Below the pieces are notes generated by a model. That model had not been told where the DNA came from. It did no database searches and worked only from the letters and a program-made list of their open reading frames with translations. The translations under genes were made by a program, and so were the position numbers. A stretch of 47,170 nt of DNA from a virus: positions 1 through 47,170 of IMG/VR virus record IMGVR_UViG_3300018046_000002; one strand, written 5' to 3'. Positions 4,653-35,339 of the stretch are shown here, in pieces; position 1 is the stretch's first letter, and each line of letters starts with the position of its first letter.

Positions 4653-4955
4653 ATGTGGGACTTGCTTGTGAAGGGTTTCGACCTGATTATCTACTATAAA
4701 AAGGATCAGGCGGTCGGCCGGCCGTACTGGGAGGACACGAAGCTCGTGGGCCTCGTAGTGGGTATGGTGGCGACTGAGATTACAAAGTTATTCGGTGTGG
4801 AAATTTCAGCCGACCTCCAAATAAAGATTGTGGCTGCTGCTGTAGGCATTGGAGCCCTGTTCGACGTGAAGACTGGAATCGCGCAGGAGCCGGTTGAGAA
4901 GGCCGTAAATGCAGCCAAGCCAGTGCAGGAAACGAACTTAACCCAAATAGGTTAA
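4653..4955 (+). CDS. Putative membrane protein, holin-like candidate
   Basis: 100 residues with AGGAGG 5 nt upstream. Two hydrophobic stretches (KLVGLVVGMVATEITKLFG and QIKIVAAAVGIGALFDV) could span the membrane, separated by a short polar turn. The C-terminus is charged. Two spans in about 100 residues is compatible with a class II holin or a small phage membrane protein. There is no recognisable family match, so the lysis role is an inference from position. Confidence 0.5.
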   Translation: MWDLLVKGFDLIIYYKKDQAVGRPYWEDTKLVGLVVGMVATEITKLFGVEISADLQIKIVAAAVGIGALFDVKTGIAQEPVEKAVNAAKPVQETNLTQIG

Positions 4956-7041: not shown

Positions 7042-7697
7042 CCACCTTCAAAACCATCGGAGCTATTTCGTGGCCTTCTCAAAAGACATCAATCGGAGCT
7101 AGGCCTTCTCAAAAGACATCAAAACGAGGATGGGCTTTGAGCCTTGATCTGAAAGCGAACGGCGACGATTCGGACACAATTACCTTTCATCTGAAGGAGA
7201 GTATTTCGGATTCCGATGTTTTGGCTCTAGTTGGGTGGGCGAAGGAACAAAAGTTAGAAGACTGGTATTCGGATATGGACAAACGCTCAGTGAACATTAT
7301 GGCCTATCATCATTTCAACATTCCTCTTTCTCCGGCTCCGCATATTGATGCTTCCGGTGTTTTGGCCCTCTACCTTCAAATTCTTCACCAGTGCGTATTG
7401 AAAACGAAGAAGTTGCTCTACATGGGAGGCAACGACCTGCAAAAAGAAGTGAAGGAGCAATTAATCGACCTGAAAAGAGAAGCCAGCCCACAAATTCAGG
7501 ACTATCCCGCTATTGCCGCTTTGTGCTATGCTGTCAGCGCGGCGTATCTATGGTATCGTGCTCCGCAAAAAGAGCAGATTCCGACTCACGCGGAGCATAT
7601 AATCAACTCGGTTGAGGGCAAGAAGGATTACGAATCTTGGGTCGAGCGATTCCTGAACAAAGAGAACGAGGTGTACAGTGACAATGAACTCTGGTAA
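7038..7697 (+). CDS. Unknown protein with duplicated N-terminal segment
   Basis: 219 residues, ATGA-coupled to terL. The N-terminus contains an imperfect tandem duplication (ISWPSQKTS then ARPSQKTS, from DNA repeats 7056-7091 and 7092-7121). The remainder is helical (DVLALVGWAKEQKLEDWYSD; GVLALYLQILHQCVLKTKKL; AIAALCYAVSAAYLWYRAPQ), the last being markedly hydrophobic. Position after terL and before small genes suggests a packaging or regulatory accessory. No family recognised. Confidence 0.6.
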   Translation: MTTFKTIGAISWPSQKTSIGARPSQKTSKRGWALSLDLKANGDDSDTITFHLKESISDSDVLALVGWAKEQKLEDWYSDMDKRSVNIMAYHHFNIPLSPAPHIDASGVLALYLQILHQCVLKTKKLLYMGGNDLQKEVKEQLIDLKREASPQIQDYPAIAALCYAVSAAYLWYRAPQKEQIPTHAEHIINSVEGKKDYESWVERFLNKENEVYSDNELW

Positions 7698-8091
7698 TGT
7701 GCTGCTTGATGAGCCCGTTGACCCGACCGCCTTTGTCCCGAAGGTCGTGAGGCCAAGAGAACCTTCGGACGTGCCGGTAGTGAAGGTGAAGAGGGCCAAG
7801 CCGAAGCCGGTCTCGCGAAGCGATCTTTTCTACCGGCTGCAAGGTGAAATTTTAAGACTGAGGCCGGATTTCTCCTGCGATTGGGATACAACCAGTGAAG
7901 CTCTTCTGAGCCAAATCCTTTCAATCGAGCAGGACAAGGAGCGTAAGCATTACCCGGTCAAAGAGCAGGTCACCGTTGCAAATAAGCAACAGGACGATAC
8001 CAACATGCAAATTCTCGCCGGTATCCAAGCATTGAATAAGGCTTTCGTGAAACTGGCGGGCAGAGTTGGGAAACTGGAGAAACGAAAATGA
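7678..8091 (+). CDS. Unknown protein, proline/lysine-rich N-terminus with coiled coil
   Basis: 137 residues from GTG 7678 (GAGG 5 nt upstream) or ATG 7684; it overlaps the previous gene by 20 nt. The N-terminus is rich in P, V and K. The middle reads DLFYRLQGEILRLRPDF. The C-terminus is a short coiled coil (MQILAGIQALNKAFVKLAGR) ending in a basic KLEKRK tail. It overlaps the next gene by ATGA. Function unknown. Confidence 0.55.
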   Translation: MTMNSGNVLLDEPVDPTAFVPKVVRPREPSDVPVVKVKRAKPKPVSRSDLFYRLQGEILRLRPDFSCDWDTTSEALLSQILSIEQDKERKHYPVKEQVTVANKQQDDTNMQILAGIQALNKAFVKLAGRVGKLEKRK

Positions 8092-8378
8092 AATGGATTA
8101 CCATGCAGGTTTCGCCGAGTGAATTTGCAAAACTCAAAGCAGCATACGCTAGATCAATGTGGTCTCTTGTTGAATTAGAGGAAAACCCACTGCCGGAGCG
8201 TGTCCCGTTCCACGGAGAGTTCATGGCCGTACCCTGCTATGAAGCTGTCCCCACCTATGAAGAATTTGGAGACGGTTCCGATGCACTTACTGAACAAAGC
8301 GAGGGGAACCGTTTGTGTAGAGCGCGTAAATTTCTTAATGAATGGCTGGAGAGAGATGCTAACTATTATCCCTCTTAG
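8088..8378 (+). CDS. Unknown 96-residue protein
   Basis: Begins MKWITMQVSPSEFAKLKAAY; the middle is acidic and proline-containing (EEFGDGSDAL) and the C-terminus is helical (RARKFLNEWLERDANYYPS). ATGA-coupled to the preceding gene. No domain recognised, no membrane segment. Confidence 0.55.
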   Translation: MKWITMQVSPSEFAKLKAAYARSMWSLVELEENPLPERVPFHGEFMAVPCYEAVPTYEEFGDGSDALTEQSEGNRLCRARKFLNEWLERDANYYPS

Positions 8379-8390
8379 GGAGAAACGGAA

Positions 8391-8612
8391 ATGATAAAGT
8401 ACGAATACGATGCGGTTGCGGTTGGATCATGGCGTCAAAAGGGTTCTGGCATTGCAACTTTTTTGGAAGAACTCAACTCTCGTGGCGCTGATGGCTGGAA
8501 GCTCAAAACTATTTTCTTGCACGAATCGGATTCCTATGTAATGCTTGAGCGTGAGTTGGCCGATAAGCCTGATCCAAAAGCAGAAGAGGTTGCAGATGCA
8601 CCGACTTCTTGA
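8391..8612 (+). CDS. DUF4177-like small protein
   Basis: 73 residues: KYEYDAVAV, then FLEELNSRGADGWKLKTIFL and SYVMLERELA. The pattern KYEYKVV...LN..G.EGWEL....YVLLKRE is typical of the DUF4177 family, short beta-alpha-beta proteins found in many bacteria and phages with no known activity. Start preceded by GGGAGAAACGGAA. Overlaps the next gene by 17 nt. Confidence 0.7.
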   Translation: MIKYEYDAVAVGSWRQKGSGIATFLEELNSRGADGWKLKTIFLHESDSYVMLERELADKPDPKAEEVADAPTS

Positions 8613-30770: not shown

Positions 30771-33431
30771 ATGAAGAAAGCTCGCAATATCATTTTAGGC
30801 ACAATCCTTGTTCTGACCCTATGCGTCGGCGGATTGGCCCTGGCTGATTTCTACGGGGGGTTCCCCAACGCCGGTGTCACTGCTGCCAACATCATCGCCG
30901 CCCTCACCGGCAACCCGCTTCCCATCCTCCAAGGCGGCTCCGGTGCAACCACGGCTGCTGGTGCTCTTAGCAACTTGGGGGGCGCCCATAACGGTGCGAA
31001 CTCGGACATTACATCGCTGACAGGGTTGACCACACCGTTGAGTGTAGGCCAAGGCGGCACCAACGCAACCACGGCTGCTGGCGCTCTTAGCAGCTTGGGT
31101 GGCTTGCCCTCTACCAGCCCGCAAATCACCGGTCTTTTAACTGTTCAAGGCGTTGCCGCTAACGACAATCCCGTTGTAGGTTCCTCATATTTCACCACAG
31201 GTTCTTGGACTTCTACTGGTTGGACAGGTTCGGGTAATGGTCCTTGGACTAACGTTTCTACTAATACTGCGGCTCTTTCTTTCTCTGCGACGTGTTCAAA
31301 CGCAACAGTCTATAGAGTTAATTTAGTCACTTCGGGCACTTACGGTTCAGGGACAGTGACCGTGACTTTTGGCGGCAAGACACAGAACATAACTGCTCTG
31401 GGTACTATTGACTGGTATCCTTTGACTTCGGCAACAACCAACTTGGTAGTAACGCCGCCGGGGACATTCACAGGCACGATTGCGTTTACAATAACGCCAT
31501 TAACAGCATCCACTCCAACGGTGCAGCTTAATACTTCTGGTGCGGTAGACGCTGTAGAGGTACGTGAAAACTCATCGCTTGGCAATACTTTCTTTGGTCT
31601 AAATAGCGGTGAGTATAATACTACAGGGACGAGTAATACTTCGTATGGGGCGAATGCTTTAAAGTTCAACACTACCGGCAACTACAATACCGCCAGTGGT
31701 TATTACGCCCTCACCAGCAACACCACCGGAAGCAGCAACACTGCCAATGGCTATAACGCCCTCCAGAACAACACCACCGGCAACTACAATACCGCCAGTG
31801 GTTATTACGCCCTCTACAACAACACTACCGGCAACTACAACACTGCCAATGGCATGCAGGCCCTCACCAGCAACACCACCGGAAGCAGCAACACTGCAAA
31901 TGGTTATAACGCCCTCTACAGCAACACCACCGGCACCAACAACACCGCTAATGGTTATAACGCCCTCAGCAACACCACCACCGGTAGCAACAACACCGCC
32001 AATGGCATGCAGGCCCTCAGCAGCAACACCACCGGTAGCAACAACACCGCCAATGGCATGCAGGCCCTCAGCAACACCACCGGTAGCAGCAACACCGCAA
32101 ATGGTTATAACGCCCTCTACTACAACACCACCGGCAACAGCAACACCGCTAATGGTTATAACGCCCTCAGCAACACCACCACCAACGTCGCCACGCTCGG
32201 CTCGATTACTGGCGGCTCCCTATACACAACAGGAACGTACACAGGCGTTGTAATGACCCATTCAAGTGGGTCATCTGCAACTACATATCCTACAGCAACG
32301 ATAGTAGTAAATGTTGGCGGTGCGGTTTCATCCGTAACGATAACTTCTCCAGGCGTAGGTTTTCAGGACACAACAACTGTACTCACTGCCCCTGCCGCTT
32401 CGATAGGCGGCACTGGTTCAGGGTTCTCCGTACCCGTTGCAACACTTAACACTGCCGCAAACAATACTGCTCTTGGCTATCAAGCAGGACGATATATTTC
32501 AGGCGGTTCAACAGTTAATTCATGGTCCACGAACTCAACGTACCTCGGAATGAACACTTACGGATTAGCTGATGGCGACATCAATGAAACTGTAATTGGA
32601 TATGGTGCGGTTGGGAATGGAAGCAATACGGTTACGCTAGGTGGGTCAGGAACGACAGGGACGATAGTTCCTTACGGCAACGTCGGCATCGGGACGACTG
32701 CTCCATCCAATAAACTCTCCGTCCAAGACTCAACGGCACTCGGTACTGAGTCTTGCGCATACCCTACTACTTTCTCCAACGCAGTTTGGACCCTGGCTGG
32801 TGACTTCTCAATAAACGGCAGTGCGGCCACGTTTACTGAGTCTGGCGGATCGGGGACAATCACTCAGACTGCCGCTAATCAGGCTCAGGTTTCAGCGGGA
32901 AATCGCTGGTATCAGATACAGTACATTGTTTCAGCTACGCCAACCGTTGTCGGAGCTACGATGACGCTGACAACGGGATTCGCTTCTTCCTCGACCACTT
33001 TACCGATAGTGGCTGGAACAAATACAATACTATTCAGGTCGGCAGCGGCACCGGCAAACATTGTACTGAGCGTTAGCGGTGCTACCTCCGGGGCATTCAC
33101 TCTTACTTCGGTATCTGTTAAAGAGGTTCAGGGCGGCTCTATCGCTCTTGGCGCCGATATTAAGCTCGGTCCGACCCTTATGCCTGCGGGCACGACCGGC
33201 AATCAGACGATCAACAAGTCAAGTGGTCAGGTGAGGATTGCTGCGGCAGGGACAGCAGTGACTGTGACCGACAGCCTTGTGACGGCCAAAAGTATCATTA
33301 TGGCTATGGTGGCTTCGAACGATACAACTGCTCAGGTAAAGAACGTAGTGCCAACGGCAGGGAGCTTCACGATCAATATGGTGGCTGGCGTAACAGCAGA
33401 GACACCAATCAGCTTTGTAATTTTCAATTAG
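30771..33431 (+). CDS. Long repetitive tail-fibre-like protein with signal peptide
   Basis: 886 residues. Residues 1-26 (KKARNIILGTILVLTLCVGG) are a signal peptide. Next come two copies of the fibre motif Q-GG-T/S-ATTAAGAL-S-LGG (about 53-115), a beta domain, then eleven 17-residue units of type TGSSNTANGYNALYSNT (about 285-470), as in trimeric beta-helical fibre and adhesin shafts. The C-terminus (LGPTLMPAGTTGNQTINKSS ... TPISFVIFN) resembles fibre ends. No S74 chaperone motif was recognised. Likely receptor-binding. The export signal is anomalous for a virion fibre. Confidence 0.7.
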   Translation: MKKARNIILGTILVLTLCVGGLALADFYGGFPNAGVTAANIIAALTGNPLPILQGGSGATTAAGALSNLGGAHNGANSDITSLTGLTTPLSVGQGGTNATTAAGALSSLGGLPSTSPQITGLLTVQGVAANDNPVVGSSYFTTGSWTSTGWTGSGNGPWTNVSTNTAALSFSATCSNATVYRVNLVTSGTYGSGTVTVTFGGKTQNITALGTIDWYPLTSATTNLVVTPPGTFTGTIAFTITPLTASTPTVQLNTSGAVDAVEVRENSSLGNTFFGLNSGEYNTTGTSNTSYGANALKFNTTGNYNTASGYYALTSNTTGSSNTANGYNALQNNTTGNYNTASGYYALYNNTTGNYNTANGMQALTSNTTGSSNTANGYNALYSNTTGTNNTANGYNALSNTTTGSNNTANGMQALSSNTTGSNNTANGMQALSNTTGSSNTANGYNALYYNTTGNSNTANGYNALSNTTTNVATLGSITGGSLYTTGTYTGVVMTHSSGSSATTYPTATIVVNVGGAVSSVTITSPGVGFQDTTTVLTAPAASIGGTGSGFSVPVATLNTAANNTALGYQAGRYISGGSTVNSWSTNSTYLGMNTYGLADGDINETVIGYGAVGNGSNTVTLGGSGTTGTIVPYGNVGIGTTAPSNKLSVQDSTALGTESCAYPTTFSNAVWTLAGDFSINGSAATFTESGGSGTITQTAANQAQVSAGNRWYQIQYIVSATPTVVGATMTLTTGFASSSTTLPIVAGTNTILFRSAAAPANIVLSVSGATSGAFTLTSVSVKEVQGGSIALGADIKLGPTLMPAGTTGNQTINKSSGQVRIAAAGTAVTVTDSLVTAKSIIMAMVASNDTTAQVKNVVPTAGSFTINMVAGVTAETPISFVIFN
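31623..32181 (+). repeat. Eleven 51-bp coding repeats in the fibre gene
   Basis: Eleven tandem units of 51 bp (one is 48 bp) encode T-G-x-x-N-T-A-N-G-x-x-A-L-x-x-N-T. Units fall into classes ending YNAL, YYAL or MQAL that recur in mixed order, as expected from unequal recombination. Spacerless, coding and in-frame, so not a CRISPR array. Confidence 0.85.
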
Positions 33432-33439
33432 GAGGATGT

Positions 33440-33640
33440 CAATTACCCCTGACTGAAGTCAGAGGCTTGCAGTTCCAGATTTCGGCTGGCAGGTCGCTCT
33501 TTCGAGTTCGGACTGCGATTGGCGGATTGACAAAACGCCAGAACATGCTGCCACAACGGGATTAAGTATATTTTAAACCAAGCGGCAAGTCAAGCCGCAA
33601 TTCCTCCCCTGACTAAAGTCAGAGGTTTCCTTGCGGAGGT
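33440..33640 (+). mobile_element. Relic resembling the 3' end of an IS200/IS605 tnpB element (omega-RNA-like)
   Basis: No phage gene fits here. Two near-identical hairpin cores, CCCCTGACTGAAGTCAGAGG (33446-33465) and CCCCTGACTAAAGTCAGAGG (33607-33626), flank the segment. Between them one frame is open for 38 codons from 33449 (LTEVRGLQFQISAGRSLF and on to MLPQRD, stop 33563-33565), like a truncated protein C-terminus. Non-coding sequence follows with a GCGGC...GCCGC stem. From memory this resembles the right end of tnpB elements, where the last codons overlap the omega (reRNA) scaffold. No tnpB or tnpA body remains. Confidence 0.5.
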
Positions 33641-33646
33641 TTTGTG

Positions 33647-33910
33647 ATGAGAACCCTACTTGCAATCATCCTTGTGCTTATGGCAACTGCGGCCTTCGCC
33701 CAAACTCCTGCGCCTACGCCTCCTGTCTGGACACCTACGACAGATTGTAGTGCGTGTACTCAATCAGCACCGTGCTCAAACAGCTATGTGACGCCGGATG
33801 GTCTGACGACCTGCACGGGCACAACATACTGCATCAGCACGGGTGAGACTCCAAATTGGTACACCACATGGTCAAGCTGCGGGCCGACGCCAGCCCCGGC
33901 AGGACCATGA
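33647..33910 (+). CDS. Small secreted cysteine-rich protein
   Basis: 87 residues from ATG 33647. The signal peptide MRTLLAIILVLMATAAFAQ is followed by a P/T/C-rich mature part with eight cysteines (TDCSACTQSAPCSNSY; CTGTTYCISTGETP; SCGPTPAPAGP), suggesting a compact disulphide-bonded protein. Its ribosome site GCGGAGG lies in the right flank of the tnpB-like relic, so the insertion may have supplied the translation signal. Function unknown. Confidence 0.55.
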   Translation: MRTLLAIILVLMATAAFAQTPAPTPPVWTPTTDCSACTQSAPCSNSYVTPDGLTTCTGTTYCISTGETPNWYTTWSSCGPTPAPAGP

Positions 33911-34442: not shown

Positions 34443-35339
34443 TTATGCGAAACTGCGCTCTGCCAACTTCTCTTTGTAGTATTCGGGGAAACCGGCGATT
34501 GATTTTCTCAGAACTTCATTGCCGAACTCTCTGAACAGAAATTCCATGATCGTTTGTTTCTCTTCCTCAGTTATGTCACGCTGAATTTCCTTAATGAGTT
34601 TCCCGATGTCTCGGGGTGAGTTCTCAAGCTCTCCGATGTCAGCAAGATGTTGAATTGCCTTGTTCCATCTTGCCGGGGTTCGATATGCCTCACAGAAAAG
34701 CTCCCACTTCCCCTTGCCTGTATGCTCGCCCTTCCAAGTTTTTTGATTCACTTCCTTGAAGTTTTCAGAAACGAATTTACCCATCATAAGCGGCATCGGT
34801 TGACCTCCGAGCAAGAACTGTTTTGCGTAGTTCTTAACAACGACGCCCTCGACCTTGCAGCCACCCAAAATGCTGTCAGTTTCCAGCATGGCCGCAAGCT
34901 CTTCCATATTGCCAATGTGCCCGTAGTAAATCAGGGGTACATGGTCGATTTGAAGCATTTCGGAATATTCAGCCGTACCCATATTGAACTTGCTCCCGTA
35001 GGCGTCTGAGACACCAAAAAGCATCAAATGATTGAGCGGCACGCGTTCATATTTGAGAGTATTGTGCTTCGGTGTTTTTAGGTATTCGGCATAGAACACA
35101 GTGTTGTCTGGGATGATCGCCTCGATGGATTGAACGTAATCAATGGCCTGTAGAAACATCTTTTCGGGAGCAGCAGCAAAGATGATCTTGCCCTTACTCC
35201 GCATAAAAAGCTCACCATTGATCTTGCCCCAATCGAATTGAGAACCATCAATCTTCTCGGTGACTTCAACGGGGCCATCAAAGATGTCCCGAATGTAATC
35301 TTGCCCGAGGGTAAACACCTTGGGAAAAGCTTTAATCAT
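34443..35339 (-). CDS. RNA ligase (T4 Rnl2-type)
   Basis: 298 residues. The nucleotidyltransferase signature KIDGS lies in VTEKIDGSQFDWG, with K29 as the adenylated lysine. VFYAEYL fits motif III, VEGVVVKNYAKQF motif IV, and MGKFVSENFKE motif V. This is the order and spacing of Rnl2-like ligases, which seal RNA nicks with 5'-phosphate and 3'-OH ends. The C-terminal helical part (YRTPARWNKAIQHLADIGEL; EEEKQTIMEFLFREFGNEVL) could position the substrate. In T4 such enzymes repair cleaved tRNA after host defence nucleases act. No polynucleotide kinase is seen nearby. Confidence 0.85.
   Translation of the reverse strand: MIKAFPKVFTLGQDYIRDIFDGPVEVTEKIDGSQFDWGKINGELFMRSKGKIIFAAAPEKMFLQAIDYVQSIEAIIPDNTVFYAEYLKTPKHNTLKYERVPLNHLMLFGVSDAYGSKFNMGTAEYSEMLQIDHVPLIYYGHIGNMEELAAMLETDSILGGCKVEGVVVKNYAKQFLLGGQPMPLMMGKFVSENFKEVNQKTWKGEHTGKGKWELFCEAYRTPARWNKAIQHLADIGELENSPRDIGKLIKEIQRDITEEEKQTIMEFLFREFGNEVLRKSIAGFPEYYKEKLAERSFA

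Follow-up and report, generated by a model that had tools for sequence, protein, structure and literature searches.

PATEs themselves are already known. Those of Haloquadratum walsbyi are short, lack a transposase, carry near-terminal palindromes as direct repeats, have IS605-type ends and generate no target duplication, and the locus described here resembles them in each of these respects (PMC3119063). A PATE-like IS605 element of Halanaerobium hydrogeniformans comprises a left-end (LE) hairpin, the last 58 nt of tnpB and the whole right end (RE), which is nearly the anatomy of our locus (PMC7290912). Single-strand excision and insertion is the mechanism of IS608, and in IS608, ISDra2 and IS605 a second hairpin is located 3' of the main LE palindrome (PMC5934647). 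In ISDra2, the TnpB omega-RNA contains a known pseudoknot, its scaffold extends over the 3' end of tnpB and the RE, and the flank after the RE serves as guide (PMC10097598); our locus appears to be organised likewise. It lies in a viral DNA stretch of 47,170 nt (the window, by which we mean this whole stretch), between a fibre gene (30771-33431) and a secreted-protein gene. At 31696-32253 the fibre gene includes NTTGSSNTANGYNAL-type repeats, and another frame there, 185 codons long, is open on the same strand.

Full-length tnpB elements with differing flanks were compared, together with two further PATE copies, for boundary setting (Table 1). The comparison of tnpB elements across differing flanks fixes both ends, and since the window carries both, its element is complete; the segment recognised in the initial annotation is real, and its limits (33440-33640) are corrected to 33438-33643 on the minus strand, antisense to both the fibre gene and the secreted-protein gene. 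The general layout of full tnpB elements is TCAT followed directly by AAAACCTCCGCAAGGAAACC and a hairpin at the LE, and a hairpin followed by TAATTGAC as the last bases of the RE; the window minus strand has both. The window LE is 86% identical to the LE of tnpB elements (85 nt, E=2e-21), and the 40-nt RE shows 100% identity to the RE of complete tnpB elements carried by other viral contigs (E=8e-15). The near-identical hairpin pair reported in the initial annotation is confirmed, with a spacing of 160 nt and 91% identity over a 23-nt repeat; the hairpin pattern (at most 3 mismatches) occurs at these two sites only in the window, against a chance expectation of 0.01. Since the second of the two hairpins belongs to the LE, the element has both of its ends and is not the solo right end or scaffold that had been proposed. 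The other hairpin is indeed part of an IS200/IS605 RE, the segment also includes the tail of tnpB and an omega-RNA-like core, and the truncated 38-codon frame exists; similarity to an IS605-type RE was found, and conservation of the segment as part of the fibre gene in related phages was not. If the hairpins were merely repeated terminators of transcription, placed between the fibre gene and the secreted-protein gene, this would account for the terminator-like score of the 33609-33622 hairpin on the plus strand, but the T tract is weak and identical hairpins mark the ends of tnpB elements in many contexts that have nothing else in common, which leaves this explanation exceedingly improbable.

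Table 1. Features of the element and its immediate flanks (window coordinates).
Feature	Position	Strand	Remarks
Complete non-autonomous IS200/IS605 element (PATE), 206 bp	33438-33643	minus	bounds from tnpB elements and PATE copies
LE with AAAACCTCCGCAAGGAAACC and two hairpins	33559-33643	minus	
LE subterminal hairpin	33606-33625	minus	CCCCTGACTAAAGTCAGAGG; position matches LE hairpin of tnpB elements
Second LE hairpin, GCGGC...GCCGC	33582-33598	minus	
Sigma70-like promoter, TTGACT-17-TATACT	33565-33593	minus	faces omega-RNA-like core
38-codon frame (37 aa and stop)	33443-33556	minus	
Omega-RNA-like stem, TGGCG/CGCCA	33520-33540	minus	loop GTCAAT at 33526-33531
Second stem, GCAGTCC (33510-33516) with GGAACTGC (33469-33476)	33469-33516	minus	
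TnpB C-terminus, LELQASDFSQG-stop	33443-33478	minus	final 11 codons of the 38-codon frame; compared with TnpB of L013/L004
RE hairpin	33446-33465	minus	CCCCTGACTGAAGTCAGAGG
RE terminus, ATTGAC (cleavage side TTGAC)	33438-33443	minus	partner of loop GTCAAT
Putative guide: 3' end of fibre gene with stop codon and displaced native ribosome site	33418-33437	minus	predicted from TnpB biology
Native Shine-Dalgarno of downstream gene, AGGAGG	33430-33435	plus	206 bp further off after insertion
LE-derived new Shine-Dalgarno of downstream gene, GGAGG	33635-33639	plus	in all subfamily copies
GTGA, complement of target motif TCAC	33644-33647	plus	overlaps start of 87/88-aa secreted-protein gene

The near-terminal palindromes match those of the IS605-type element, and TTGAC is invariant at the ends of the subfamily tnpB elements and PATE copies, with a variable base following. 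By inspection, the hairpin feet could pair as GAA with TTC(AT) at the LE and as CAA with TTG(AC) at the RE, the window target ATCAC having one mismatch. There is no inverted-repeat pair within 33200-33900, hence no terminal inverted repeats, and no target-site duplication: the window flanks AGGAGGAT and GTGATGAG are unlike, and the same applies to both further copies. No match to Y1 transposase TnpA (PF01797) occurs anywhere in the window, nor any to TnpB (PF07282), of which only the 11 C-terminal codons persist. The element is too small for a transposase and is present as three full copies and one partial copy. By every class feature tested, 33438-33643 is a PATE.

Relatives were identified in IMG/VR, where the hairpin scan yielded 12 stretches. 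In four of them (L004, L007, L011, and L013) the hairpin is preceded by a TnpB of 379 aa that scores as guided_TnpB above the curated cut-off and matches PF07282 (E=2e-24) and PF01385. A scan with the omega-RNA core identified two more full-length PATEs (L090:4081-4279 and L090:5609-5807) in a single 74.9-kb viral contig, where a complete tnpB element and a gene for Y1 TnpA are present as well. Across the full 206 positions these copies share 92% identity with the window copy, and their left hairpin lacks 7 nt; their flanks are unlike those of the window, and they are sited before a C5-methyltransferase-like gene and before a short ORF with a GTG start. Full-length copies at sites with differing flanks indicate that the PATE has been mobile and does not represent an isolated relic. 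An immobile, decayed remnant of a tnpB insertion made within the lineage of the window phage would be consistent with a window devoid of transposase and nuclease and with a tnpB reduced to an 11-codon tail; however, copies of full length that agree with it internally occupy two further positions on a different viral contig, neither end is damaged, and the copies have the deletion join in common, whereas a local relic would not spread. Such a remnant is therefore improbable. The initial annotation had listed a decayed insertion, a non-autonomous element mobilised in trans and a domesticated guide RNA; the second fits best because three full-length copies with differing flanks exist.

The PATE probably arose when an IS200/IS605 element that carried tnpB lost almost the whole of that gene. 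The window phage has a relative, G008 (terminase 72%, many genes syntenic), in which the full tnpB element is present. In L003, the same LE and RE enclose a Y1 TnpA, which is a plausible mover in trans. The DNA-level search of the phage collection returned short chance matches only; among GTDB genomes, the exact LE sequence has seven matches, all without hairpins and thus chance matches; no close TnpB was found in 387 genomes of Verrucomicrobiota; and in the phylum of Kallipyga (Bacillota group), relatives occur in 17 of 398 genomes, with ends that are mostly different. Apart from these, the L003 element (7119-8530; L096) holds, in addition to Y1 TnpA, a 283-aa protein where tnpB would be, with two LAGLIDADG-like motifs (YWLGFILADGT and FWRGVIDGDGS) and a weak Pfam match (E=0.005); this element interrupts an integrase gene, and it would be unusual for a homing endonuclease to take the place of tnpB. 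A further type of tnpB element, with the hairpin core of the first type and other ends (AGTGAATACT...CTTCTAGGG), is found in L006, L010, L005, L002, L041, and L052, and shares viral contigs with the first type.

The interior of the PATE is organised around a promoter-like site and an omega-RNA-like core. The promoter-like site is unchanged across all three PATE copies, and an equivalent promoter stands ahead of tnpB at the same position in full elements (TTGACA-17-TATAAT in L013). The loop GTCAAT is complementary to the terminal 6 nt of the element and could form a pseudoknot. A stem-loop with a matching RE hexamer is present in 12/12 elements, including tnpB elements of other lineages whose stem sequences differ; five hexamer pairs are represented (GTCAAT/ATTGAC, GTCAGT/ACTGAC, GTCAAC/GTTGAC, GTCAGC/GCTGAC, and GTAAAC/GTTTAC), and L031 pairs GTCAAT with GTTGAC via G-U wobble. 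By shuffling, the chance rate of such a pseudoknot is 1-16% per element (6.5% for the window copy); as judged from sequence, a scaffold overlapping the tnpB 3' end and the RE with a pseudoknot is weakly indicated by the window copy alone and strongly across the 12 elements. The second stem is common to L004, L013, L093, and L088. The further stems mentioned in the initial annotation are present, and the free energy of the RNA fold is ordinary (z = -0.72, in a calculation that cannot model the pseudoknot); what distinguishes them is conservation and covariation. The Rfam search that had been recommended matched no family at gathering score in the whole window, Rfam not covering all omega-RNAs.

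Because the element reads on the minus strand, a putative guide would lie to the left of 33438, read leftwards from 33437, and not after 33640 as had been suggested. A domesticated guide-RNA gene retained by the phage, either TldR-like or a TnpB-partnered regulator, would explain why core and promoter are conserved, and prophage TldR-guide cassettes are known (PMC13418256). Against this, the guide would be antisense fibre coding sequence, the three copies would have three unrelated flank-derived guides, and the window has no TnpB or TldR gene, that is, no adjacent nuclease-dead TnpB homologue such as a TldR system has; domestication, the third of the options listed initially, is accordingly very improbable.

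At the gene-proximal end, the LE-derived GGAGG precedes the GTG at 33644 and the ATG at 33647, so the earlier statement that the downstream gene uses the flank of the element as its ribosome site stands. In every subfamily copy the LE supplies GGAGG-TTTT running up to the start codon. Rejoined in silico, the empty site of the window reads ...CAATTAGGAGGAT joined directly to GTGATGAGAACC, and the clean junction expected without the 206 bp is ...GGAGGAT joined to GTGATGAGA. A Shine-Dalgarno core is found in the LE leader of 7 of 27 different left ends, compared with 2.0 in shuffles (P=0.0035); it is a trait of some lineages, and most left ends are without one. The LE GGAGG may drive translation of the downstream gene. 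No empty allele was found in IMG/VR via relatives of the neighbouring RNA-ligase gene, and G008 has no recognisable fibre/secreted-gene junction, hence no natural empty site was seen. The RNA ligase itself (PF09414, phrog_548; 34443-35339, minus) is encoded on the strand opposite the structural genes and has no near relative in IMG/VR. Separately, a 46-nt form with a single hairpin, in which RE and LE are fused (L014, L015, L017 = L045), still places GGAGG-TTTT ahead of the ATG at which a 123-aa gene begins. This scar corresponds to the terminal-only 52-bp form that arises in Haloquadratum PATEs by deletion of the core between the palindromes (PMC3119063).

On the opposite strand the target motif TCAY reads RTGA (TCAT/TCAC versus ATGA/GTGA), and at most sites the element is directed away from a gene, the start codon of which begins at the first base past the LE. 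For the nine subfamily sites with both ends, flanks were joined and compared with RTGA sites in the same contigs: a Shine-Dalgarno site together with an ORF of 30 codons or more is present at 7/9, against 9.3% of background sites (P=1.8e-6), one of the seven (L003, inside the integrase gene) being a mechanical match. Under a stricter definition (ORF of 50 codons or more with an in-frame stop ahead of it) the figures are 4/9 and 11.4% (P=0.013). In a separate set of related viral tnpB elements, obtained from a family-wide TnpB scan with the LE recognised by its TCAT-N14-GGA layout, 13/23 are at gene starts, against 10.1% (P=5e-8); here the automatic LE rule retains only loci with TCAY at the expected distance, and the criterion of at least 50 codons was chosen after the first set was seen. 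The encoded N-termini in this set are often plain gene starts (e.g., MKKLLLTLAFLIGLTGLAHAQ). The two sets share no site, two loci of the separate set (L128 = L031; L141 = L030) had been looked at earlier, and these P values are guides rather than exact figures, as some loci may be near relatives. Exceptions to start-codon placement are L011, at a stop codon, and L003 and L030, within genes. By eye, the TCA/TAG of the L011 empty site (~4690-4712) becomes TCA/TAA from the first bases of the element, leaving the protein end unchanged. Also by eye, a TTCAT-type tnpB element in a Bacteroides fragilis plasmid (L040) is situated before an unannotated ORF of ~80 codons that starts at the motif, upstream of tnpB at 1507. 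The bacterial group to which Bacteroides fragilis belongs makes little use of Shine-Dalgarno sites.

The start-codon pattern could reflect survivorship, by which insertion takes place at any TCAY and only insertions at gene starts persist in gene-packed phages. TCAY is short, phage genomes are dense, and there are exceptions within genes (L003 and L030); we regard survivorship as rather probable. Alone, however, it leaves the Shine-Dalgarno excess in the LE leader unexplained. It is compatible with adaptation of the LE, since an element that restores translation would survive more often, and with the joint explanation set out below; survivorship combined with LE ribosome-site adaptation is likelier than a choice of target beyond TCAY.

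We assign a probability of roughly 0.88 to a joint explanation in which the locus is a minus-strand PATE that has lost tnpB, was inserted at a start codon by TnpA acting in trans, replaced the ribosome site and possibly encodes a guide RNA. Single-strand transposition by a Y1 TnpA in trans would have placed the PATE 3' of TCAC. The GTGA found where the secreted-protein gene starts reads TCAC on the other strand, so that the PATE landed between ribosome site and start codon. Read from the gene side, the LE gives GGAGG-TTTT, which probably takes over from the displaced ribosome site in translation. The former tnpB promoter is seen to stand immediately before the omega-RNA-like core, and the RNA, if transcribed, would carry the fibre/secreted-gene junction as its guide. 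The weakest step is the last: TnpB of a related element could use the PATE RNA to cut phage copies without the insert, an action on insert-free copies that is extrapolated from TnpB biology (PMC11870625; PMC10097598). As the window contains neither TnpA nor TnpB, mobility or guide use needs another element. A more speculative extension, which we consider doubtful, is that a phage IS605-type family targets start codons and rebuilds the ribosome site, its short derivatives acting as non-autonomous gene drives with TnpB borrowed within the phage population. Under such a drive, the tnpB promoter would be fused to the omega-RNA scaffold, the guide would be rewritten at every new site, and insertion between ribosome site and ATG would be nearly harmless.

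Compared with the Haloquadratum walsbyi PATEs as characterised in the accessible text, the window element differs in its location in a phage, its promoter before an omega-RNA-like core, its position at a start codon and its LE Shine-Dalgarno (PMC3119063). For the Halanaerobium element, the available excerpt describes a single copy of different sequence and reports no start-codon association (PMC7290912). Published transposase-less IS605 end hairpins are also fixed beside exported-protein genes, as in the window, but those are single hairpins at gene 3' ends, whereas the window has a complete element at a start codon. The tnpB elements L004, L007, L011, and L013 (IS605/IS1341-type) have the LE and RE of the window element and represent its source family, and differ in carrying the 379-aa TnpB. 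ISDra2 likewise has tnpB in cis (PMC10097598), which the window element lacks, and the guide RNA of the latter is putative. In the open-access literature, no report was found of start-codon placement of IS605 elements with supply of a ribosome site, a result that speaks weakly for novelty. A PATE whose omega-RNA core immediately follows a promoter was not found there either. Insertion sequences usually damage the genes they enter. If the proposed mechanism is correct, a start-codon target together with a ribosome site of its own would give the element a simple route to tolerance in dense phage genomes. A nuclease-less element that keeps a promoter-driven guide RNA would make the spreading of such elements by TnpB in trans testable, and a tolerated insertion at a start codon would be comparable in effect to self-splicing introns.
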